From a virus: a stretch of DNA of 64,000 nucleotides. The notes beneath the pieces were generated by a model. That model did no database searches. It was given only the letters and a program-made list of their open reading frames with translations, and was not told the origin of the DNA. Made by a program: the position numbers and the translations under genes. Shown here piece after piece: positions 7,606 to 35,807 of this stretch. Location: positions 1 to 64,000 of the IMG/VR virus record IMGVR_UViG_3300017917_003016; one strand, 5' to 3'. Within the stretch, counting starts at the first letter, position 1. The number at the start of each line of letters is the position of its first letter.

Positions 7606-8340
7606 ATGTTAAGATTGGTTAAAAAATATCGACGAGGCTATACCGGTGAAGACGTTATTGTTGAAAAACGTATGGAATACGGTAGATGGCATACTGTTAC
7701 AGAAAGAGTACCTAATCGCATAGTAAATAAACAAATTTCCAATGTTGCGGTGATTATTGGAAATGGCACTAATCGTTTAAATTTTGATCTCATGAGATTA
7801 AAAAAACTCAGCGGACTTCTTGGGTCAAAAACAGTACAAACCTACGGATGCAATGCATTGTATAGAGATTTTTCACCAGATTTTTTAATAGCAGTAGGAA
7901 ATAACGGTATAGTTGATGAGATTGCTGACAAAGAATATACTAACGAACACATTGTATATTCAAGTGCTGCACATCTGCTGCAATTTCCAGGAAAGTTTTA
8001 TCTGCTACCGTATGATGTATATGCTGATGCTGGTACTGCTGCTATCTACCTGGCAGCATTTGATGAACATAAAAAAATTTACCTAATTGGTTTTGATGGT
8101 CATGAGCCTAATTGGAACAATAATGTCTACGCCGGAACAACCGGTTATGACGGCAAAAATGTTCACATTGATCATTCAGAATGGATACTTAATCACAAAC
8201 AAGTTTTTGATGTTTACGACGACGTAGATTTTGTTTGGGTAACCCCGTTAGGCAATAATCTTGTACCAGAGCCGCTGAGATCGTGTCTTAATTTTAGACA
8301 AATTAGTTTTCAAACTCTGATATTAGAGTGCGATCTATAA
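7606..8340 (+). CDS. Putative DUF115/GT42-like Rossmann-type protein
   Basis: A 244-residue protein starting 9 bases after the giant fiber gene, with GGGTAAAAAATG before it. Residues ~47-56 hold NVAVIIGNGTN, followed by a CNALYRDFSPDF segment and later KKIYLIGFDGHEP. This pattern (nucleotide-binding GNG near the N-terminus, then a hydrophobic strand ending in GFDG) resembles MptE/DUF115 proteins and GT42 sialyltransferase-like folds. Its place after the fiber gene fits a role in modifying a fiber or surface sugar, but that is inference. The similarity is remote and catalytic residues cannot be assigned. The end overlaps the convergent Nudix gene by 6 bases. Confidence 0.45.
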   Translation: MLRLVKKYRRGYTGEDVIVEKRMEYGRWHTVTERVPNRIVNKQISNVAVIIGNGTNRLNFDLMRLKKLSGLLGSKTVQTYGCNALYRDFSPDFLIAVGNNGIVDEIADKEYTNEHIVYSSAAHLLQFPGKFYLLPYDVYADAGTAAIYLAAFDEHKKIYLIGFDGHEPNWNNNVYAGTTGYDGKNVHIDHSEWILNHKQVFDVYDDVDFVWVTPLGNNLVPEPLRSCLNFRQISFQTLILECDL

Positions 8341-21650: not shown

Positions 21651-22145
21651 ATGACACAAAAACTTTCAGAACTTTTTAATCTTCCCGCCACAGAAGACGT
21701 TTCAATTGAAGAAACTGCTCAATCAATTGAAGAACAGCAGGAAATTATTCAAGCAGTAGATACTGCCATCGATAAAATTGATGCGGCTCTGCCCTTTGTT
21801 AACGACCTAGACACTAGCGATCAAGAACTTGACGAGTTGAGCGAGTTAGCCAAAGAAAAATTTCAAGATTTGATCGATTTAGGTATGAATGTTGAAGCAC
21901 GTTTTAGTGGGCACATCCTTGCTACCGCAGGCACGTTATTGGGCCATGCTATCACAGCCAAACAGGCTAAACTAGATAAAAAATTACGCATGGTTGATCT
22001 GCAACTTAAAAAAGCCAGGTTGGATCATCAAGTGGCTCAGGCTGAGAAGAAGTCAGACGGTGAACGCATTATTGATGCTGAAGATGGGCAGGCAGTGGTC
22101 CTAGATCGCAATGAGTTGCTAAGACAGATCCTTAGCAAAAAATAA
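21651..22145 (+). CDS. 16: Terminase small subunit gp16-like
   Basis: A 164-residue acidic, helical protein. Residues ~60-140 (AKEKFQDLIDLGMNVEARFSG, HILATAGTLLGHAITAKQAKLDKK, MVDLQLKKARLDHQ) match the central coiled-coil region of gp16, which forms rings that regulate gp17 packaging. The N-terminus is acidic and disordered. Identification rests on pattern, size (T4 gp16 is 164 aa) and place between gp4 and gp17. Unlike T4, where 16 and 17 overlap, five other genes separate them here. Confidence 0.7.
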   Translation: MTQKLSELFNLPATEDVSIEETAQSIEEQQEIIQAVDTAIDKIDAALPFVNDLDTSDQELDELSELAKEKFQDLIDLGMNVEARFSGHILATAGTLLGHAITAKQAKLDKKLRMVDLQLKKARLDHQVAQAEKKSDGERIIDAEDGQAVVLDRNELLRQILSKK

Positions 22146-22155
22146 CGGTGCTTTT

Positions 22156-22163
22156 GATAAATA
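22156..22163 (+). promoter_or_regulatory. T4-type late promoter (GATAAATA)
   Basis: GATAAATA lies 19 bases before the ATG at 22183, with AGGATTAGGA in the leader. Confidence 0.7.
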
Positions 22164-22182: not shown

Positions 22183-22806
22183 ATGAAAAATTTCTTACAA
22201 TATCTAACCGAAACCCAAAAGGTCTACGAATATAAGATAAAATTGGCCAATATTGATCCCAAAGATCATATGGACCGCATTAAAACTATGCTGGCGGCTT
22301 ATGTAGTTGATACTGTTAGCGCACCCAAGCATCTGCCCATTATGGAAAACAATATAGATTTTCCTAGCATGAGAAATGCAGATATTCACGTAATCGAAGT
22401 AAGTTTAAAATATCCGGTTACAGAAACCCAGTTAAGAATGTTAATTGCTGAGACTGTAAGCGTACCACTTAATCAAGTATTTGTTGTGCCAGCCGGACAT
22501 CCGGAAGAACTGTGGCGTAACGGCGAAGGTGAACTCAAACAATATGTTCAGGGCGATGCAGAACTAATAAAGCCATATCCCAACGCCAGCGCGGAACAAA
22601 CTGATGCTGGCAAGGCCTACGCAGAAAAAAAGGTTTTATTTAAAGATCTTCCTAGAACTAAATGGACACAGGCTGGGTCAGACAACACTATCGGTGGTGC
22701 ACCTAATCCAGCAGACGGTAAAACTACTAATGGTATTGCTACTGGCACAAATTCTCCAGTAGGAAGCCAAAAAAATTCAATTCCTAACCCAAATAAAGGA
22801 TTATAA
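22183..22806 (+). CDS. Candidate internal head protein with capsid-targeting-like N-terminus
   Basis: A 207-residue protein beginning MKNFLQYLTE. This closely resembles the T4 capsid-targeting peptide MKTYQEFIAE, which carries internal proteins into the prohead and is cut by gp21 after (L/I)xE. Residues ~15-115 look like a compact alpha/beta domain (YEYKIKLANIDPKDHMDRI, then VSLKYPVTETQLRMLIAE). The rest is Pro/Gly/Asn-rich and probably disordered. It has its own late promoter and is first of five genes between gp16 and gp17. The enzymatic role, if any, is unknown. Confidence 0.55.
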   Translation: MKNFLQYLTETQKVYEYKIKLANIDPKDHMDRIKTMLAAYVVDTVSAPKHLPIMENNIDFPSMRNADIHVIEVSLKYPVTETQLRMLIAETVSVPLNQVFVVPAGHPEELWRNGEGELKQYVQGDAELIKPYPNASAEQTDAGKAYAEKKVLFKDLPRTKWTQAGSDNTIGGAPNPADGKTTNGIATGTNSPVGSQKNSIPNPNKGL

Positions 22807-22808
22807 AA

Positions 22809-24308
22809 ATGAGCGATATGAAAATGTATAATATTTTAGGTAAGTTTAATACTCTAAACCCACAACTTACCAAGGTTAGCGAAAAAGAAATTGATCAACC
22901 AATTAAAGAAGAAGTTGACCCTAAGAGCCTCAAAGGTCACATTCAACAACTAGAAGAAAAATATATGGGTTTTAAGAAAACTGTTGCAGCCATTAAGAAA
23001 GGTGGCAGTGCAGAAGATCCAGAGGCTGTGGCTGCTAGTATTGGTCGCAAAAAGTATGGCAAAGAAAAATTTCAGAAGGCTGCAGCCGCCGGTAAGAAAC
23101 TGGGAGAAGCAGCGAAGCCAGATTTTCTAGATCTAGACAAAGATGGTGATCGCAAAGAGCCAATGAAGAAGGCTGCTAAAGAAAAGAAACAAGTTGCCGA
23201 AGGCCAAATGAAGCAAATGTTGCATAATGATGCAGAACGCATGAGCCTTAAGGCATTTTTAGACAAACACTGTCATCGTTCTGAAGACCGTAAGGAAATG
23301 ACTGACTTTTGGAAGAACGTTAACGGCGAAGGTGATCTAAATGAAGTGGCACCTCCGGGTGCTAAAGCAGAGCGTATGGTCAAACATATCAAGAAAGGTT
23401 ATGCTAAGGACGGTAAATTAACTAAACGCGAAAAGGGTATTGCCTATGCTACTGCTTGGAAGGCTAAAAAAGCAGGTAAGTTAGAAGAAAGTCATGATAT
23501 TCGTAAGCACCCTATCTATACAACGCAGGAAGCCTGGGACCACTATGCCCAAGAACTAGCAGAACAAGAATTAGCCAACATGGAAGCAGAGTCAGTCATG
23601 CAAGAAGAACCACTAATGGATGCTGAGCATGAATTGGACGAAATTGCTCGTTTAGCAGGCTTACCAAAGACAATTGACGTAGACACTAAAACACCTTATC
23701 CAACAGGTGGCGTACCTGCAGATCCAAGCAAGGCACCACCACACGAGGCCCCTGTGGTGCATGAAGGCGAAACCTGCGTAGAATGTGGTATGATGGAAAG
23801 TGAGTGTGGTTGTGATCATGAGCCGATGGATGAAGGTGCAGAAGAGATGGGCGAAGGCAATGAATTCTCTGGTGCACTAGCAGCAGCACGTGCTTCTGGC
23901 GCCAAGGAGTTCAGCGTTGGTGGTAAGAGTTATAAAGTAAAAGAAAGCCAAGAACCTGTAACTGAAGACATTAACTTAAATGTCAGCGCCACTGGTCCTG
24001 AAGATGTTCTTAATGTTATACAAAAACTAGCAGGTATGCCTGTAATTGCTGTAGCCGCGCATGACCAAATGCAAGAAGAACTCGAAGAGGATGGCCCAAA
24101 AGAACGCGATATTGAGTATACCAATACTCCGCGCGAAGAAACAGCGTCACCTGAAGCAGCCTATCCTGGCGGTACTGATTTGAACAGACCCAAGAAGTCC
24201 TATTCAGACAAGCCGTTCCGCGGTGATAACCCGATGGCTGTAGCAGAAGCCAAAGAGGAAGCCTTGTGGAAAGCCTACAAGGGAATGATTGGAAGCGTCA
24301 AGGAGTAA
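22809..24308 (+). CDS. Acidic virion-type protein with EF-hand-like and Cys-cluster motifs
   Basis: A 499-residue, highly charged and probably modular protein. Residues ~104-116 hold FLDLDKDGDRK, an EF-hand-like calcium loop. Residues 323-335 form a C-x2-C-x6-C-x-C cluster. Two short segments, DEIARLAGLP (~280) and VIQKLAGMP (~405), carry a recurring LAG motif seen in neighbouring genes. Abundant (L/I)xE sites would suit processing by the prohead protease. It starts 2 bases after the preceding stop and lies in the late unit before gp17. Probably an internal or scaffold-type head protein; the function is not established. Confidence 0.5.
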   Translation: MSDMKMYNILGKFNTLNPQLTKVSEKEIDQPIKEEVDPKSLKGHIQQLEEKYMGFKKTVAAIKKGGSAEDPEAVAASIGRKKYGKEKFQKAAAAGKKLGEAAKPDFLDLDKDGDRKEPMKKAAKEKKQVAEGQMKQMLHNDAERMSLKAFLDKHCHRSEDRKEMTDFWKNVNGEGDLNEVAPPGAKAERMVKHIKKGYAKDGKLTKREKGIAYATAWKAKKAGKLEESHDIRKHPIYTTQEAWDHYAQELAEQELANMEAESVMQEEPLMDAEHELDEIARLAGLPKTIDVDTKTPYPTGGVPADPSKAPPHEAPVVHEGETCVECGMMESECGCDHEPMDEGAEEMGEGNEFSGALAAARASGAKEFSVGGKSYKVKESQEPVTEDINLNVSATGPEDVLNVIQKLAGMPVIAVAAHDQMQEELEEDGPKERDIEYTNTPREETASPEAAYPGGTDLNRPKKSYSDKPFRGDNPMAVAEAKEEALWKAYKGMIGSVKE

Positions 24309-24310
24309 TT

Positions 24311-24664
24311 ATGAAATTTAACGAATTCCTTTCTGAGTCCGTTATTGCTGAAGAAATTTACCATGGTGACGAATTTTACGAAGCCTACGGCGATCTATGG
24401 TATGATGAAGATGGGCTATATGAAGCAGAATATCGTGGTCGTAAAGTACCTCTTGGTAAACCTATGCGTGGTGATGTTAAGAAGTTTAAGGTATATGTTA
24501 AGGATCCTAGCACCGGCAACATCAAAAAGGTAAACTTTGGTGATCCTAACATGCGCATCAAAAAATCTAACCCGGCCCGTCGCAAGAGTTTTCGTGCTAG
24601 ACACAACTGCGATAATCCAGGTCCTCGTACCAAGGCTCGCTATTGGTCCTGCAGAAAGTGGTAA
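24311..24664 (+). CDS. Small basic candidate internal head protein
   Basis: A 117-residue protein. I use the ATG at 24311, preceded by AAGGAG, rather than the longer frame. It begins MKFNEFLSE, again like a T4 capsid-targeting peptide, followed by an acidic stretch (YEAYGDLWYDEDG). The C-terminal ~55 residues are basic with NPARRKSFRARHNC, then RTKARYWSCRKW. That conserved C-terminal block is familiar from T4-like aquatic phages. The two cysteines and the basic charge would suit nucleic acid or zinc binding. It starts 2 bases after the previous gene. Confidence 0.55.
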   Translation: MKFNEFLSESVIAEEIYHGDEFYEAYGDLWYDEDGLYEAEYRGRKVPLGKPMRGDVKKFKVYVKDPSTGNIKKVNFGDPNMRIKKSNPARRKSFRARHNCDNPGPRTKARYWSCRKW

Positions 24665-24667
24665 ACT

Positions 24668-25048
24668 ATGAAAATACGCGAAATTGTTCATGAGGGTAAA
24701 GAAGGAAAAAAACCCAAACACGACCGTGCAGATACTGGCGAGTGGCAGTTTCGAGACCAAGGCGGGTATGATCGTGCTTATAATTTAAATCGTATTATGA
24801 TGGCTAGTGCCATAGCAGACGGCGTTTCTGAAACTGCTGTTGATATGCCGCAAAGTTCTTGGGTTGAAAAATTTAATGTTGCCCGTCCTTATACGGAACA
24901 AGAACACAAGATGATGAAAAGTGCGTTTAAAACTGTAAGCAGTGAGCATTATCACACAGAAAAAGATCATAAGAGCCGCGAACCCAATGATACGCATAAA
25001 GTAAGTCCCATGCGAGACCGCGGTCCTATCAAAAGTAAATCTAAGTAA
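24668..25048 (+). CDS. Small charged hypothetical protein of the packaging cluster
   Basis: A 126-residue basic, hydrophilic protein beginning MKIREIVHEG, a weaker version of the targeting-like N-terminus. It contains QFRDQGGYDRAYNLNRIMMA and a Lys/His/Asp-rich tail. It begins 3 bases after the preceding stop and overlaps the next start by one base (TAATG). No domain is recognised; probably a virion-associated protein. Confidence 0.5.
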   Translation: MKIREIVHEGKEGKKPKHDRADTGEWQFRDQGGYDRAYNLNRIMMASAIADGVSETAVDMPQSSWVEKFNVARPYTEQEHKMMKSAFKTVSSEHYHTEKDHKSREPNDTHKVSPMRDRGPIKSKSK

Positions 25049-25275
25049 TGTCTGAACTTGACGAAATAAAACTACTTGCGGGTGTTACACAAAACGTTGG
25101 ACGCCTACAGGAATATAAAGGTGTTGGCAGTGTCCAAACCAACGGCAGTAATATGAGCATTACTGCCAATGAAAAAATTCAATATCAAAATACTCACAAT
25201 ATTCAACCTGGAACTCCAGAATGGTTTAGGTTGTGGTTTAGTAAACCATATCTAACAGGCGAAAAACCCTGGTAA
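25048..25275 (+). CDS. Small protein with LAG motif
   Basis: A 75-residue protein starting MSELDEIKLLAGVTQNVG. This is the same DEIxxLAG segment found in the 499-aa and 847-aa neighbours. The rest has QEYKGVGSVQTNG and a C-terminal PEWFRLWFSKPYLTG. Overlap with the preceding stop codon supports coupling. It precedes the large terminase by 36 bases. The function is unknown. Confidence 0.5.
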   Translation: MSELDEIKLLAGVTQNVGRLQEYKGVGSVQTNGSNMSITANEKIQYQNTHNIQPGTPEWFRLWFSKPYLTGEKPW

Positions 25276-25297
25276 TCTAATTTACTGTAGTTAAATC

Positions 25298-25305
25298 TGA
25301 TAAGT
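25298..25305 (+). promoter_or_regulatory. Degenerate late-promoter-like site before gp17
   Basis: GATAAGTA, one mismatch from the late motif, lies six bases before the terminase ATG with no Shine-Dalgarno between. Confidence 0.35.
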
Positions 25306-25311
25306 AGATGT

Positions 25312-26883
25312 ATGAGTACAGCCAAGGGTACAGATAATGTTCTTGTTAAAAAGCCGCATACCAAATCTGCCTTTACACAAGAACAATTAGAAGAATTTGT
25401 AAAATGTTCAGATCCTATAACGGGTCCAGAATATTTTATGAGTCATTATTTCTATATACAACATCCTACCCGCGGTAGAATGTTATATTCTCCCTTTGAT
25501 TATCAAAAAAGATTAATACATACCTACCATAGTTATCGTTTTAGTATATCATTAATGCCTCGGCAAACAGGTAAGTCAACTAGTGCTGCGGGATATCTAT
25601 TATGGTATGCAATGTTTGTGCCTGATTCAACCATTCTAATTGCTGCACACAAATACTCAGGTTCACAGGAAATCATGCAGCGCATACGCTATGCCTACGA
25701 ATCTGTGCCAGACTTTATACGTGCCGGTGTTGTGAGTTATAACAAAGGTAGTATAGATTTTGACAATGGTAGCCGTATAGTTTCGGCCACTACAACAGAA
25801 AACACAGGGCGCGGTATGTCAATATCTCTGCTGTATGCTGATGAGTTTGCATTCGTCCGTCCAACTATCGGTAGAGAATTTTGGACATCTATTAGCCCAA
25901 CATTGGCCACTGGCGGTAAGTGTATTATTACGTCAACACCTAACTCAGATGAAGACCAGTTTGCCATACTATGGAAAGGTGCCAACAAATGTGTAGATGA
26001 ATATGGTGAGGCCACTGACATAGGCATCAACGGATTTAAAGCGTTTCGCAGTTATTGGAACGAGCACCCAGACCGCGATGATAAGTGGGCCACAGAACAA
26101 CGTGCTCAATTGGGGGATGAACGTTTCCGCAGAGAAATGGATTGTGAATTTATTATCTGGGATGAAACTTTAATCAGCCCAAGTTTTCTAGTAGAAATGG
26201 AAGGAGTCGATCCTATAGAACGGCAAGGTCATGTACGCTGGTACAAACGACCAGAACCGCAGTTTACCTATGCAGTGGCATTAGATCCTAGTTTAGGAAC
26301 TGGTGGAGATCCCGCGGGCATACAGGTTTTTGAATTACCCACGTTTAAACAAGTAGCAGAATGGCAGCACAATCGTACTCCTATACAAACACAAGTGGGT
26401 ATAATTGCAGAAATTACCAAATATCTAGCCGAAACGGTCAATCAAAATAATATCTACTACAGTGTTGAAAACAACACAGTGGGCGAAGCAGCACTTATCT
26501 GTATTAATGAAATTGGCGAAGAAAACATTCGTGGTATTTTTCTAAGCGAGCCTCGCGGTATGTCAGCCACTGGCCGCAGATATCGCAAAGGATTTAATAC
26601 AACAAACAAAACAAAAATTTCAGCCTGTGCTAAATTAAAGAATCTAATTGAAAGCCGGCGCATGACTGTGGTCAGTCGCAGCCTTATATCAGAACTCAAA
26701 ACCTTTGTAGCACAGGCGGCCAGTTATGCAGCCAAACCAGGTGAAACAGACGATTTGGTCATGAGCCTATTGCTGATTGTACGCATGGCTCAGGTCTTGC
26801 AGAGTTTTGACAGCCAACTTGACTATACTATGAAGGACAGTCTTGAGGATGTAGTTGAGCCCATGCCTTTCTATATACTCTAG
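25312..26883 (+). CDS. 17: Terminase large subunit gp17
   Basis: A 523-residue packaging ATPase-nuclease. The ATPase has Walker A PRQTGKST (83-90) and Walker B LLYADE (173-178), with a coupling TSTP segment after it. The RNase H-like nuclease has Asp325 in ALDPSLGTGGD, Glu386 in YSVENNTVGE and Asp480/481 in ETDDLVMS. It cuts concatemeric DNA and drives it into the prohead. Length is slightly less than T4 gp17 (610). There is no Shine-Dalgarno before the ATG, only a degenerate late-promoter-like sequence. Confidence 0.95.
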   Translation: MSTAKGTDNVLVKKPHTKSAFTQEQLEEFVKCSDPITGPEYFMSHYFYIQHPTRGRMLYSPFDYQKRLIHTYHSYRFSISLMPRQTGKSTSAAGYLLWYAMFVPDSTILIAAHKYSGSQEIMQRIRYAYESVPDFIRAGVVSYNKGSIDFDNGSRIVSATTTENTGRGMSISLLYADEFAFVRPTIGREFWTSISPTLATGGKCIITSTPNSDEDQFAILWKGANKCVDEYGEATDIGINGFKAFRSYWNEHPDRDDKWATEQRAQLGDERFRREMDCEFIIWDETLISPSFLVEMEGVDPIERQGHVRWYKRPEPQFTYAVALDPSLGTGGDPAGIQVFELPTFKQVAEWQHNRTPIQTQVGIIAEITKYLAETVNQNNIYYSVENNTVGEAALICINEIGEENIRGIFLSEPRGMSATGRRYRKGFNTTNKTKISACAKLKNLIESRRMTVVSRSLISELKTFVAQAASYAAKPGETDDLVMSLLLIVRMAQVLQSFDSQLDYTMKDSLEDVVEPMPFYIL

Positions 26884-26890
26884 ATAAATA
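26883..26890 (+). promoter_or_regulatory. T4-type late promoter (GATAAATA) abutting a start codon
   Basis: GATAAATA overlaps the gp17 stop and ends five bases before the ATG at 26896, so the transcript would start at or next to the start codon. Confidence 0.7.
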
Positions 26891-26895
26891 TTGTT

Positions 26896-29439
26896 ATGAG
26901 AGAAATTAACAAAATCGCAGAAGGTCTATTTGAAAAAATTCGTGACCGTTTTGAGGATGTTAGCCTGGGTGATGACAAAGCCATGGCCACACAGGATCCT
27001 GAAAAGGCAAGATTCTTTAATTTTGACTATGTAGTTGACGGTCATAATCACGGTAACGTAACATTAAGCCTAATTGATGAAATTAGTCTCAAAGTCTACT
27101 TCAGTAAGAACATAACCAAAGATCTAAGTGACCACGAACGACAGCATTGGTATGATTTCCTTCGTAGTCTTCGTGAATTTGCCCGACGAAATTTGCTGAG
27201 TTTTGAACCCAGAGATATCACTCGCTCAACCCTCAAATTCCGTGATATTAGGCAGGTCAGCAAGGCAGACGACACATACGATAAAGATGACGTAGTTAAA
27301 GAAAGTCGCATGTATGGAACCACTCGCAGTAGTTATGAAAATCGTGGCCCGGTGCGTATAATCATACGTCATGCAGATCATGTCGATCCTGAACGTGTAG
27401 GGGACAGATCTCGCAAGATAAAATCAATTTATCTTGAAACACAAGAAGGCGAACGCTTTAAACTGCCACATAACAGCCTGCGCTATGCTCGTGCTATGAG
27501 TCGTCATTTACGTGAGGGTGGTACAATCAATGACGATTTTGGTCAGCACATTACAGAAATGGCTGCAGAGTGCGCTAAACTTAGAAACTTTAAAACTGCC
27601 ATGTCACGTCGAGTATTTGAAGACGAAGAAACTCAGCATATGGTAGAAGCAGCATTTGAATATCACGGACTTCTCAAAAACACTCTTAATCGCATGAGCG
27701 GCCGCAAAGGGTATCAGCGATGCCAAGAACAATTTGTGGCTACTAGTACTAGTTATATACCCGAAGAAGATTTTGATGCAGAAGAATTCAAAGAAAGATT
27801 TGTCAAACGTACATATAATGAACGTATACAAGACGCTCTTCCGTTGGTGCACAAGGCTTATCGTATGAAAAAGACCGATAAATTTGTAGAAGCATTTGAA
27901 GGGTGGGCTGATAGGTTATCAGAAGGAACTTGGCAAATACCAGAAGCAGACAGTGATATTGCACAATTAGTTGAGTTGCTAGCAGAACCTCTTCCTGTAG
28001 GAGCAGACGCTGAAAATGCTATTAATTCACTGAGTGACCTAATAGGAGATGATGTACTTTATGATGATCTTGCAGATCTAGCCAAAGTAAATCCTGAGGA
28101 AGATGCCCGTAATGTTATAATTGCATGGTTACAAACTAATTTGCCGGAAGTATACGACAAACTTGAACAATCTCCTGAGGAAGATCGGCCCTCAACACAC
28201 AACCAAGAACCTATGGCTGAAAATGAAAAGCCAGTGGCAAACATGAGTAGAAATGAAATATTAGATTTATTAAACATGGATCCCATGCGGGCTAAGAATT
28301 ATTCAAATGAACAACTTAGACGTCTGGCAGACAAAAGGACCGGCGAAATGACAGAAAACTATGAACAAGATGATTTAGACGGTAGCCCTTATGAAATGGG
28401 TTATCGTGCTGCTGCACTACACCATAAGAGCAAGAGTTCAAATCCTTTTGACATGTCAGATCCAAGATATGATACTTGGGAAGATGGTTGGCGAGAAGGT
28501 GCAGCAGAAGAAGGCCTTGATGAATTAGACGAATCTGGGGCGTACGGTAGTTACGGTGATATCCATGAAAGTCATGATGCTAGCGAAGCAGTACAGGCTG
28601 CGATTATACACCGCATAATCAATCAACACAAAGATGTTTTAGCCAAATTTGGTCCAACTGCTATTATGAATGCTGTAGAAGATGAAGCAGCACATAAGGG
28701 AGATATTGAAGAAATTGGTACCAGTGATGTCAGTGCATGGACTAGATCAGTAATCCAATCTTTAGAAACAGGTCAGTACGGTGATGCTCATAACGATCTT
28801 GAAGAGGACTATGGTCAACGCGCACCAGCAGATTCTGCTAGCCCGCTTACTCATGCACACCAAGCATGGTGCGATGCTTGTGATCGTGAAGAAAAGAAAT
28901 GTGTCTGCGAAGACAAACTAGAAGAATCTTTTATGTCTGATTGGAATTCATTTCTGTCAGAAGGCAAAATGAAAGACCTAGCCATCGACCTTCGCGAACT
29001 ATCAGAAGCAGAGTTTAAGAAAAAGTATGGCAAGACCAAAGCAGAAATGCGTGCTAGTCTAAAAGAAGATTTAGATGAAGGACAAGAAGAAGATGACGTT
29101 GCTGCCGCACGTGCTGCTAGAGCCAAACTTGACAAGCCTGCAGTGTTTAGAAAACAAGAAAAGTTCCTACCTAGCAAAGACAAGGATTGGATGGTCACTC
29201 CCGACGAACTAAAGGCTGCTGAAGAACTACCCAGTAGAGAGTTTGCACTGCGAAAGAAAGAACTAGGAATGAAGGAAGAAGTAGATACGGGCGAAGTAGA
29301 TGCTCGTAAAACTACGCCATCAAGCGAAGAAGAAAAAGAAAAGGTATTTTCTAAACATCGCGAACGTGTAAAAAATTTAGAAAAAGACGAACTTGAAGAA
29401 GATATCGTAGATATCAAGAAACTAGCAGGCCTTAAGTAA
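26896..29439 (+). CDS. Large modular virion-type protein (847 aa)
   Basis: This starts MREINKIAEG. The first ~110 residues contain HGNVTLSLIDEISLKVYFS, HERQHWYDFLRSLREFARR and FEPRDITRSTLKFRDI. I recognise this block from large structural proteins of T4-like aquatic phages. Further blocks are a basic region (~145-200), helical acidic regions, a short repeat-like acidic stretch, a C-x2-C-x6-C-x-C cluster (659-671), and an internal SDWNSFLSEG segment that looks like a second targeting peptide (~680). The C-terminal DIVDIKKLAGLK ends the protein. It is rich in (L/I)xE sites. It probably enters the head and is processed; any ejected-enzyme role is unproven. A terminator follows. Confidence 0.6.
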   Translation: MREINKIAEGLFEKIRDRFEDVSLGDDKAMATQDPEKARFFNFDYVVDGHNHGNVTLSLIDEISLKVYFSKNITKDLSDHERQHWYDFLRSLREFARRNLLSFEPRDITRSTLKFRDIRQVSKADDTYDKDDVVKESRMYGTTRSSYENRGPVRIIIRHADHVDPERVGDRSRKIKSIYLETQEGERFKLPHNSLRYARAMSRHLREGGTINDDFGQHITEMAAECAKLRNFKTAMSRRVFEDEETQHMVEAAFEYHGLLKNTLNRMSGRKGYQRCQEQFVATSTSYIPEEDFDAEEFKERFVKRTYNERIQDALPLVHKAYRMKKTDKFVEAFEGWADRLSEGTWQIPEADSDIAQLVELLAEPLPVGADAENAINSLSDLIGDDVLYDDLADLAKVNPEEDARNVIIAWLQTNLPEVYDKLEQSPEEDRPSTHNQEPMAENEKPVANMSRNEILDLLNMDPMRAKNYSNEQLRRLADKRTGEMTENYEQDDLDGSPYEMGYRAAALHHKSKSSNPFDMSDPRYDTWEDGWREGAAEEGLDELDESGAYGSYGDIHESHDASEAVQAAIIHRIINQHKDVLAKFGPTAIMNAVEDEAAHKGDIEEIGTSDVSAWTRSVIQSLETGQYGDAHNDLEEDYGQRAPADSASPLTHAHQAWCDACDREEKKCVCEDKLEESFMSDWNSFLSEGKMKDLAIDLRELSEAEFKKKYGKTKAEMRASLKEDLDEGQEEDDVAAARAARAKLDKPAVFRKQEKFLPSKDKDWMVTPDELKAAEELPSREFALRKKELGMKEEVDTGEVDARKTTPSSEEEKEKVFSKHRERVKNLEKDELEEDIVDIKKLAGLK

Positions 29440-33316: not shown

Positions 33317-33746
33317 GAAAATTGTTCTAGTAACCGGCGGTTTTGATCCTATTCATTTAGGGCATATTGAATATTTTACCGAGGCTAAACGTTTAGGGGA
33401 TAAACTAGTAGTAGGAGTCAATTCTGATTCTTGGCTAACACGCAAAAAAGGCAAGGCATTCATGCTTAGATATGATCGCATGCGCATAATTTCTAATTTG
33501 CGCATGGTTGACTATGTCTTAGAATTCAACGACGACGACGATACGGCTAATCATGCTATAAAACTAACCAAACAGACTTGGCCTACAGCAGAAATTATCT
33601 TTGCCAATGGGGGCGACAGAAACAAAGGTAATATTCCGGAAATGTCTATAGAAGGCGTTGAATTTGTATTTGGTGTTGGCGGGACTATCAAAAGATCCAG
33701 CAGCAGTAAGTTGTTAGATGAATGGTGCAGGAATTTCGATAAATAG
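33309..33746 (+). CDS. Cytidylyltransferase-like nucleotidyltransferase
   Basis: A 145-residue protein with the HxGH-type motif GGFDPIHLGHIEY (~10-22), a VGVNSDSWLTRKKG phosphate-binding segment, and GGTIKRSSSSKLL near the end. These are the signatures of glycerol-3-phosphate cytidylyltransferase and of the HldE/RfaE nucleotidyl domain. It would couple CTP or ATP to a sugar or polyol phosphate. It overlaps the methyltransferase end by 8 bases. Its last codons (GAT AAA TAG) contain the late promoter of the next gene. Confidence 0.8.
   Translation: MPEKIVLVTGGFDPIHLGHIEYFTEAKRLGDKLVVGVNSDSWLTRKKGKAFMLRYDRMRIISNLRMVDYVLEFNDDDDTANHAIKLTKQTWPTAEIIFANGGDRNKGNIPEMSIEGVEFVFGVGGTIKRSSSSKLLDEWCRNFDK
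33738..33745 (+). promoter_or_regulatory. T4-type late promoter (GATAAATA) inside a stop codon region
   Basis: GATAAATA is embedded in the final Asp-Lys-stop codons of the previous gene and ends 7 bases before the ATG at 33753. Confidence 0.7.
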
Positions 33747-33752
33747 AGTATC

Positions 33753-35282
33753 ATGCGCGATCTAATAGAAATAGTTACTGAAAGTGTAGGGCTAGCCAAC
33801 AGAATTCCTGGCCAAAAATTTGTCAATCCTGAAACCAAAAAAACTATTACGTTCCAAAGTTTGATATTTTACCCAGAGTCTGGCAGATTTGAATCACCGG
33901 ACAAATTAAACGATGCTATTAATAGTTTATATCATGCTAGTGACATTCAGTGGTCTAATAAACCAACCAGTTTAACTGGTGGTTTTGGTATAGCACAATT
34001 TGGAGATGACGAAACAGGTGAGTACATTTATATCGGAAGATTTTTTAAGGAAATCAGCCCCAATCCTGTAGAAAACAATTTTCCAAACTCTGCTGTTCCT
34101 GGATTTAGATTTCAGGGTAAGTCAGCAGAAAAAGAGCGCACAGGTTATAAGCCCAGCGAAATTTTAACACAATTTGAAAACAATACTCCGCAGTCGATTC
34201 TACAGCAGGTTGTAGAAAAATTTGGCGCAGACAGTGCCATTGCACAGGCTACAAAGATATTTGTAGAATCAGATAGTCTGCCAGTGGTTATGCCTAAAGG
34301 TGATATCAATTTTGCCAGTTTTAGAGACTATTTTTGCGAATTGCTGCAACCGATTGCTTTGATCAAGGGAATGAATGTTGCAGGGAATGCCAAAGAAGCA
34401 GAACAGATATTTTTTGGCGATGCAGGCTTTGACACTAGTACGGTAAGTTTCAACACCGGAGCCATTGGTGGTTTGTCAGACAGTGTGTTAACAAATTCTG
34501 AAGGGCGTGAAATAAAACTCAGTAGTAAAGGCGCTAAGGGTGCTAAAGCCAGTGCAGTTAATTTATTAAACAGTGTTAAGGAACTAGAAGAAACTCCACG
34601 TGGAAAAGATCTAATAGAAAAGTATCAAAACGTCATTGGGATCTTAAACATAATCAAAGACCAAGGGCACTTTATGGCTCCTTTACAACTGGCTGCAATG
34701 TATGGAATTATTTCTAACGAAGACATTCCCTATGTTGAAACACTTAAGAAATATGGACCAAACGATAAAATCATAGGTTCAGGAGTTCTAACACCGACAC
34801 TGGAAAAATTGTATACTGAAAGAAAATCATCTAGCCCAGAACGAATCGTACCTAGAGAACATCTTACAGCAGCCATTGCCTATAAAGTGGCTGAGTATGT
34901 AAATGAGAATACAAACTTTGGTGAGGCTGCTTCTGAAATACTCAATAACGGTGCTTTGGTCCAGATGTACACAGATGCAGCAGAAAAGGGTGACACTATC
35001 ATTATTAAAGGTTTTAGAACAGTCTATCCTAGCACAGCAGTTACTGGTGTTGAACTAGATGCTAGCAAAACCTATTTTAGCACTGGTGGTAAAGGCAACT
35101 TTGTTTTTAATATTTTGTACAACGGCGCAACCAGCAAAGACATACAAGACCAAGAGGTACAGCAACAGGCCTCTGCTGCAAAACAAGATGAAATTGAGAA
35201 AAAAATTCAAGATATTGCACAAAGAAAACCAGTACTGAAACCTCGTGCTAAACGCGAAGACGAGCCAAGACAACTGCGATAA
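33753..35282 (+). CDS. Conserved late protein of unknown function (509 aa)
   Basis: This begins MRDLIEIVTES. Residues ~70-110 contain SLTGGFGIAQFGDDETGEYIYIGRF. A central EIKLSSKGAKGAKASAVNLL (~250-270) is a striking block recalling the strand and helix of restriction-type folds (an xKLSSKG pattern). The C-terminal ~60 residues are helical and charged. I believe relatives occur in other T4-like phages, but no function is known to me. Its late promoter and isolated place suggest a virion-associated or injected protein. A PD-(D/E)XK-type nuclease is one hypothesis; the catalytic set cannot be confirmed. Confidence 0.5.
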   Translation: MRDLIEIVTESVGLANRIPGQKFVNPETKKTITFQSLIFYPESGRFESPDKLNDAINSLYHASDIQWSNKPTSLTGGFGIAQFGDDETGEYIYIGRFFKEISPNPVENNFPNSAVPGFRFQGKSAEKERTGYKPSEILTQFENNTPQSILQQVVEKFGADSAIAQATKIFVESDSLPVVMPKGDINFASFRDYFCELLQPIALIKGMNVAGNAKEAEQIFFGDAGFDTSTVSFNTGAIGGLSDSVLTNSEGREIKLSSKGAKGAKASAVNLLNSVKELEETPRGKDLIEKYQNVIGILNIIKDQGHFMAPLQLAAMYGIISNEDIPYVETLKKYGPNDKIIGSGVLTPTLEKLYTERKSSSPERIVPREHLTAAIAYKVAEYVNENTNFGEAASEILNNGALVQMYTDAAEKGDTIIIKGFRTVYPSTAVTGVELDASKTYFSTGGKGNFVFNILYNGATSKDIQDQEVQQQASAAKQDEIEKKIQDIAQRKPVLKPRAKREDEPRQLR

Positions 35283-35799: not shown

Positions 35800-35807
35800 G
35801 ATAAATA
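35800..35807 (+). promoter_or_regulatory. T4-type late promoter (GATAAATA) near desaturase start
   Basis: GATAAATA ends 7 bases before the ATG at 35815, with no Shine-Dalgarno in between. Confidence 0.65.

Follow-up and report, generated by a model that had tools for sequence, protein, structure and literature searches.

A conserved gene island around the terminase gene of a large phage, probably encoding head cargo loaded via two short signals

Why should a series of genes separate the two terminase positions of a phage genome? The question is raised by the first 64,000 nucleotides (the window) of the IMG/VR record IMGVR_UViG_3300017917_003016, a linear virus record of 201,732 bp. Here five open reading frames (ORFs), g017 to g021, precede the gene for the terminase large subunit (TerL, gp17), and an 847-residue (aa, amino acids) protein, g023, is encoded after it; in T4, genes 16 and 17 overlap, by 17 nt. 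A first-pass annotation took these ORFs for candidate internal head proteins inserted between gp16 and around gp17, some of them bearing peptides like the T4 capsid-targeting sequence, and all six of them, with TerL, are present at the coordinates listed below. We favor, with a probability of roughly 0.62, a reading in which these genes, grouped around terminase, make up a conserved island of head cargo whose products are packaged inside the head and loaded via two short signals.

22183..22806, plus strand: g017, 207 aa, probable internal head protein, tag MKNFLQYLTE at residues 1-10 (22183-22212)
22809..24308, plus strand: g018, 499 aa, modular acidic protein, motifs ELDEIARLAGL (~23631-23663) and VIQKLAGM (~24015-24038)
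~23058-23192 and ~23343-23498, plus strand: g018 modules KPDFLDLDKDGD and YATAWK
24311..24664, plus strand: g019, 117 aa, tag MKFNEFLSE (24311-24337) and a C-terminal KARYWSCRKW domain
24668..25048, plus strand: g020, 126 aa, tag MKIREIVHE (24668-24694)
25048..25275, plus strand: g021, 75 aa, MSELDEIKLLAGV, scaffold-tail-like motif at ~25066-25086 near the N-terminus
25312..26883, plus strand: TerL, phrog_36964 (2.6e-120), Pfam Terminase_6N/6C
26896..29439, plus strand: g023, 847 aa, probable head protein, phrog_13484 virion structural protein

The TerL sequence is ~54% identical to those of the Arenbergviridae phages PA5oct, Paride and MIJ3, and the locus is not peculiar to this phage. Across 80 IMG/VR terminase loci examined for gene order, the series g017-g018-g019-g020-g021-TerL-g023-ssb recurs wherever the contigs extend far enough, though with some genes lost and some ORFs added; the same island is found in many relatives. 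It is re-assorted in PA5oct/Paride, Atu_ph07 and Phosso.

The first of the two signals is an N-terminal tag. T4 IPI, IPII, IPIII and Alt carry a capsid-targeting sequence (PMC3012670; PMC5694885), from which we derived the pattern M-[K/R]-x(0,1)-hydrophobic-x-x-hydrophobic-[hydrophobic/T/A]-x-E. In a 45-kb control stretch of T4 with 57 called genes, this pattern matches ipII and ipIII only, ipI being missed. In the source record it matches four proteins, g017, g019, g020 and g030 (the last lying beyond the island), where shuffling of residues 2-15 gives an expectation of 0.22, which bears out the earlier remark that MKNFLQYLTE and MKFNEFLSE resemble the T4 peptide. Three related genomes give 4, 2 and 2 matches against ~0.28 expected in each, and one of the two matches in Paride is a small gene of the head-core module, flanked by those for the portal and the prohead protease. 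Together with these pattern statistics, conservation supports T4-like tags on g017, g019 and g020. All 36 g017 sequences have K2 and F4, with M1 and E10 each conserved in at least 90%, at a mean column identity of 46%; among 26 g020 sequences, M1 and E9 are invariant at a mean of 43%; of 20 g019 homologues, 10 show the T4 pattern and 16 have a W-x-C type C-terminal ending. An AlphaFold model of g017, of moderate confidence (mean predicted local distance difference test score 70), places residues 4-11 in a separate helix ahead of an alpha/beta domain that starts at about residue 13, so that cutting after E10 would be predicted to spare the domain. The fold itself was discarded as a guide to the function of g017, being a common alpha/beta (ferredoxin-like) arrangement whose best Z score, 7.3, is tied with many unrelated proteins.

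Phages of marine origin encode distant relatives of g019. The KARYWSCRKW domain of g019 (24425-24661) recurs in Pelagibacter, Roseobacter, Flavobacterium and Methylophilales phages, and in phage C48C1 it is again preceded by a tag-like N-terminus, MKKFKQYIDE. A protein of the relative G001 (130777-131142, minus strand) joins a T4-type tag, MKFEEIVTE, to a SFCARMKGMKK...RKWHC module, which is present also at the C-terminus of P-HM2_112, between cyanophage genes 16 and 17.

The tag pattern is absent from g018, g021 and g023. A T4-type tag had been noted for some of the candidates; g018 and g021 carry a scaffold-tail motif instead. Two copies of this second signal, [ILMF]xxLAG[LIMV] (the LAG motif), stand in g018, one close to the start of g021 and one in the final residues of g023; of 6 matches proteome-wide, 4 thus fall in the island genes, where shuffling leads one to expect 0.05. 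In the prohead scaffold protein the same motif forms the C-terminal end, in all 70 scaffolds called from IMG/VR relatives (70/70) and, with some variation, in the scaffolds of Paride, Atu_ph07 and Vibrio phage 2.275; it is not present at the C-terminus of T4 or P-SSM2 gp22. The LAG signal is stronger than the one noticed in the first-pass annotation, which missed it. Because the motif was first spotted by eye, a profile was built from scaffold tails alone, to which the source phage contributed nothing, its record being without a scaffold gene. Scanned over 59,342 proteome positions, this profile ranks the C-terminus of g023 first (23.1 bits), g018 second (21.3 bits) and g021 fourth (16.7 bits), against a maximum of 16.2 bits in 20 shuffled proteomes. 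Matches above the shuffled maximum comprise the scaffold, Paride_0032 and Paride_0515 (twice) in Paride, and the scaffold and the g021 and g018 equivalents in G001, where the g023 equivalent falls just below. LAG is kept in 39 of 41 g018 homologues and in 36 of 41 for g021, and Atu_ph07 AUZ94908, a 113-aa protein near the terminase genes, begins MDIERLKILAGL. A Pfam scan of 28 g018 homologues matched DUF3008 alone, in 8 of them. The density of LxE sites, considered as a discriminator, proved uninformative for most island genes.

In g023, the motif DIVDIKKLAGLK lies at 29401-29436 and is kept in 53 of 67 orthologues (A or S allowed before G), where the background rate is 0.0008; the 14 exceptions include several with LAGF as their ending. 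Across relatives, the protein consists of a conserved N-terminal domain, a variable middle and a conserved tail, and ranges from 386 to 1172 aa. The two tags proposed for it do not stand: the N-terminal MREINKIAEG departs from the T4 pattern, forms the first helix of a well-predicted domain and is not kept in the Paride/PA5oct homologue, and the internal SDWNSFLSEG has no counterpart in the 67 orthologues. A fold search with g023 gave no PDB match at E <= 0.001, returning only uncharacterised phage proteins. Its middle contains one further feature:

28366..28506, plus strand: stretch resembling ribosome modulation factor (RMF) inside g023, Pfam RMF 21.2 bits (cut-off 27.9), NCBIfam 21.1 (cut-off 40)

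This RMF-like stretch, below the curated cut-offs, was seen in 1 of the 50 g023 members scanned, the present one, and may therefore be exchangeable cargo.

Are the products of such islands found in virions? In the PA5oct record, detection by electrospray ionization tandem mass spectrometry (ESI-MS/MS) is noted for EST35_0202 and EST35_0206, the homologues of g017 and g023, and also for EST35_0205 and for EST35_0203, which occupies the g018 position and has two LAG motifs; the terminase EST35_0204 and the small-terminase-position gene EST35_0201 bear no such note. Four of four non-terminase genes at this locus are hence virion-detected, in a genome with 93 noted among ~445 genes (P ~0.002). The counterparts of both Paride proteins that fit the tag pattern (EST35_0150, 0238) and of both LAG-bearing non-scaffold Paride proteins (EST35_0203, 0235) are noted as well, EST35_0150, 0235 and 0238 having been matched to Paride genes by gene order and size. 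The PA5oct scaffold, EST35_0153, has no ESI-MS/MS note, as would be expected of a protein destroyed during maturation. The proposal of packaging at this locus thus gains support from the g017 and g023 homologues and two other non-terminase genes. The "structural protein" labels of MIJ3 were set aside as independent evidence, the MIJ3 paper having identified only four proteins by liquid chromatography-tandem mass spectrometry.

Based on these observations, we propose the following model. The proteins g017, g019 and g020 would enter the prohead core via a T4-type N-terminal capsid-targeting helix ending in an (L/I/V)xE site, which would be cut by a gp21-type protease of the kind known in relatives; their entry and clipping are modeled on the T4 system (PMC3012670, PMC5694885). 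The proteins g018, g021 and g023, which repeat the motif found at the scaffold C-terminus, [DE]x[ILMF]xxLAG[LI], would dock during prohead assembly where the scaffold tail docks, on the shell protein or the portal. The cargo might plausibly also be delivered to the next host cell, as T4 internal proteins are. Homology lends good support to packaging; we infer cleavage, docking and injection.

Several observations weigh against this model. The PA5oct homologue of g017 is without E10 and is still virion-detected, and that of g023 is without the LAG tail. In a further relative, G002, no protein but the scaffold gives a clear profile match, and in the source phage the third rank of the profile scan goes to the unrelated g004 (7606-8340; 17.1 bits), which makes the test strong rather than perfect; lying outside the island and having nothing else in its favor, g004 was treated as a chance match. 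The mass spectrometry comes from PA5oct and not from the source phage, whose record is without portal, protease, scaffold and capsid genes, and covers counterparts of g017, g018 and g023 only, not of g019, g020 or g021. Its list of proteins includes metabolic enzymes and the single-stranded DNA (ssDNA)-binding protein, so detection is not proof of a location in the head.

How else could the same observations be read? The proteins may belong to the head without being injected, as core or scaffold-accessory proteins that help to build the prohead or the packaging vertex; LAG would then mark shell-binding co-scaffolds, and the (L/I)xE sites would serve their clearance. Such a role would account for a tail motif common to scaffold and island proteins, for the T4 pattern in the small Paride gene beside the protease and for the acidic, charged composition of g018 and g023. 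We nevertheless consider it unlikely, given that the counterparts persist in PA5oct virions in which the scaffold was not detected, and that g018 and g023, in contrast to core assembly proteins, differ greatly in both length and content from one relative to another. A role in the neck, in the tail or on the outside of the virion, with the tag and LAG resemblances either fortuitous or serving contacts of another kind, is improbable: although the upstream neighbors are tail tube and head completion genes and the PA5oct analysis used whole virions, in which the head interior is not distinguished from the tail, two separate head-linked motifs are concentrated in one island, and no similarity to tail families is seen. 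Least probable is a hypervariable accessory region of unrelated early or host-adapting genes with chance motifs, as between genes 15 and 18 of cyanophages, since the matching position in the cyanophage hyperplastic region (PMC2984593), the shortness of the motifs and the cytoplasmic enzymes in the mass spectrometry list are countered by the independent profile test and the shuffles, by conservation across 70 scaffolds, 67 g023 and 36 g017 sequences, and by the conserved gene order.

Within the preferred reading of a head-cargo island, we tentatively entertain a bolder possibility, to which we give somewhat less than even odds: that large T4-like phages of this clade load their cargo by scaffold mimicry, a second head-import code beside the T4-type tag, with g023 as a carrier. 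Unrelated families would bear the scaffold docking motif (...[IF]KRLAGL) at the N-terminus, at the C-terminus or inside, and the variable middle of g023, here RMF-like and possibly ribosome-acting, would be swapped between phages.

The island lies in a tight co-directional series comprising a 164-aa gene, g017, g018, g019, g020, g021, TerL and g023, with a gp32-like ssDNA-binding gene directly after g023. Its upstream border is as follows:

21651..22145, plus strand: gene at the small-terminase (gp16) position, 164 aa, phrog_16202, unknown function

There are indeed five ORFs before TerL, as had been claimed, and the name gp16 for the gene preceding them is a matter of position and size only. 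This gene is 35% identical to Paride_0513, and homology to gp16 found no support in a profile comparison with T4 and P-HM2 gp16 (hhalign probability 0.3%, with shallow profiles). The gene before it encodes a gp4-type head-completion protein according to PHROG and Pfam, rather than gp15.

Searches with Paride proteins found no portal, prohead protease, scaffold or major capsid gene in the source record; Pfam models likewise gave no match for portal, protease or major capsid, a result uninformative alone because the controls were also silent. A capsid gene 67-71% identical to that of Paride is present in 6 of 12 related records searched, and the source record, missing these genes, therefore looks like an incomplete fragment. 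A gp21-type prohead protease was recognized by position and sequence in Paride and six close IMG/VR relatives and was not found in the incomplete source record. Elsewhere in that record, at 91756-92997, a 413-aa DUF6267 protein (MKLFEIKDQTPQWLLLES) has a KWDGSPA motif like those of nucleotidyltransferases and ligases; its gene adjoins genes whose PA5oct positional counterparts are noted as virion-detected.

The T4 late-promoter octamer is TATAAATA. The window has 8 copies of a close sequence, GATAAATA, where 3.5 would be expected; they include the following sites, one of them ahead of g030:

22156..22163, plus strand: GATAAATA octamer, T4-late-promoter-like, 19 nt before g017
26883..26890, plus strand: GATAAATA octamer, T4-late-promoter-like, 5 nt before the g023 start
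33738-33745, plus strand: GATAAATA octamer, T4-late-promoter-like, 7 nt upstream of g030
33753..35282, plus strand: g030, 509 aa, further candidate outside the interval first described, N-terminus MRDLIEIVTE fitting the T4 pattern

Family searches with g030 gave no match. Of 36 [GT]ATAAATA sites genome-wide, 27 precede a gene start by no more than 60 nt, and many of the genes concerned are structural. The placement of GATAAATA octamers before gene starts suggests late expression, and the island is probably late-expressed. In five genes such an octamer ends only 5-7 nt before the ATG (26883-26890, 33738-33745, 35800-35807 and record positions 109868 and 128579); should such sites serve as late promoters of the T4 type, transcription would begin at or close to the start codon and yield leaderless mRNAs.

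What is the relation of this island to known systems? As in the T4 internal proteins, an N-terminal peptide of equal length, spacing and (L/I)xE ending stands on several unrelated small proteins and, in g017, lies outside the folded domain. Unlike them, the proteins described here have no homology beyond the tag, their genes sit around the terminase gene instead of being scattered over early and middle regions, and they include a second, scaffold-tail-like motif that is not known from T4, where gp22 is without LAG. Another close parallel is the locus of PA5oct and Paride (EST35_0202-0206 / Paride_0514, 0515, 0002, 0003), in the same position around TerL, with g017 and g023 homologues, LAG motifs in EST35_0203 and detection in PA5oct virions; it differs in being without g019, g020 and g021 and in having an extra gene after TerL. 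This extra gene, of ~500 aa and between TerL and the g023 homologue (L009:1562-3118, Paride; MKLFEVFTLYEDK), is noted by ESI-MS/MS in PA5oct and has no counterpart in the window.

Cyanomyoviruses have a hypervariable region between genes 15 and 18 (PMC2984593; PMC3037559), and P-HM2, with several genes inserted between 16 and 17, encodes there P-HM2_112, in which the YATAWK module of g018 is also found. Whereas metabolic genes are reported among the inserts of cyanophages, the genes described here are conserved, tag-bearing and probably encode head proteins. The position was called unique to cyanophages in a review, and these non-cyanophage relatives have the same insertion site. T4-GC119 is not named in the main text of the cyanophage proteomics paper (PMC3037559). 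The ejection proteins of SPN3US/phiKZ-type phages (PMC5694885) offer a further parallel, of large phages with many packed head proteins and prohead-protease processing; their propeptides are mostly >100 residues long, unlike the T4-like ~10 seen here. In DarB of phage P1 (PMC9024508), too, a short N-terminal sequence sends a protein into the phage head; the proteins are unrelated, and no scaffold-tail motif would be expected in P1, which appears to be without a separate scaffold. In a literature search, thin on subscription papers, we found no account of a scaffold-tail motif common to cargo proteins.

The related family Arenbergviridae includes Paride, a phage that replicates on dormant P. 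aeruginosa (PMC10761892), which makes the proteins that such phages bring along a live question. If the model holds, it would provide a sequence rule for predicting head-packaged and possibly injected proteins in widespread, little-studied large phages, and a further tag by which foreign proteins could be loaded into the heads of large phages. It would also extend the T4 capsid-targeting rule far outside the close relatives of T4.

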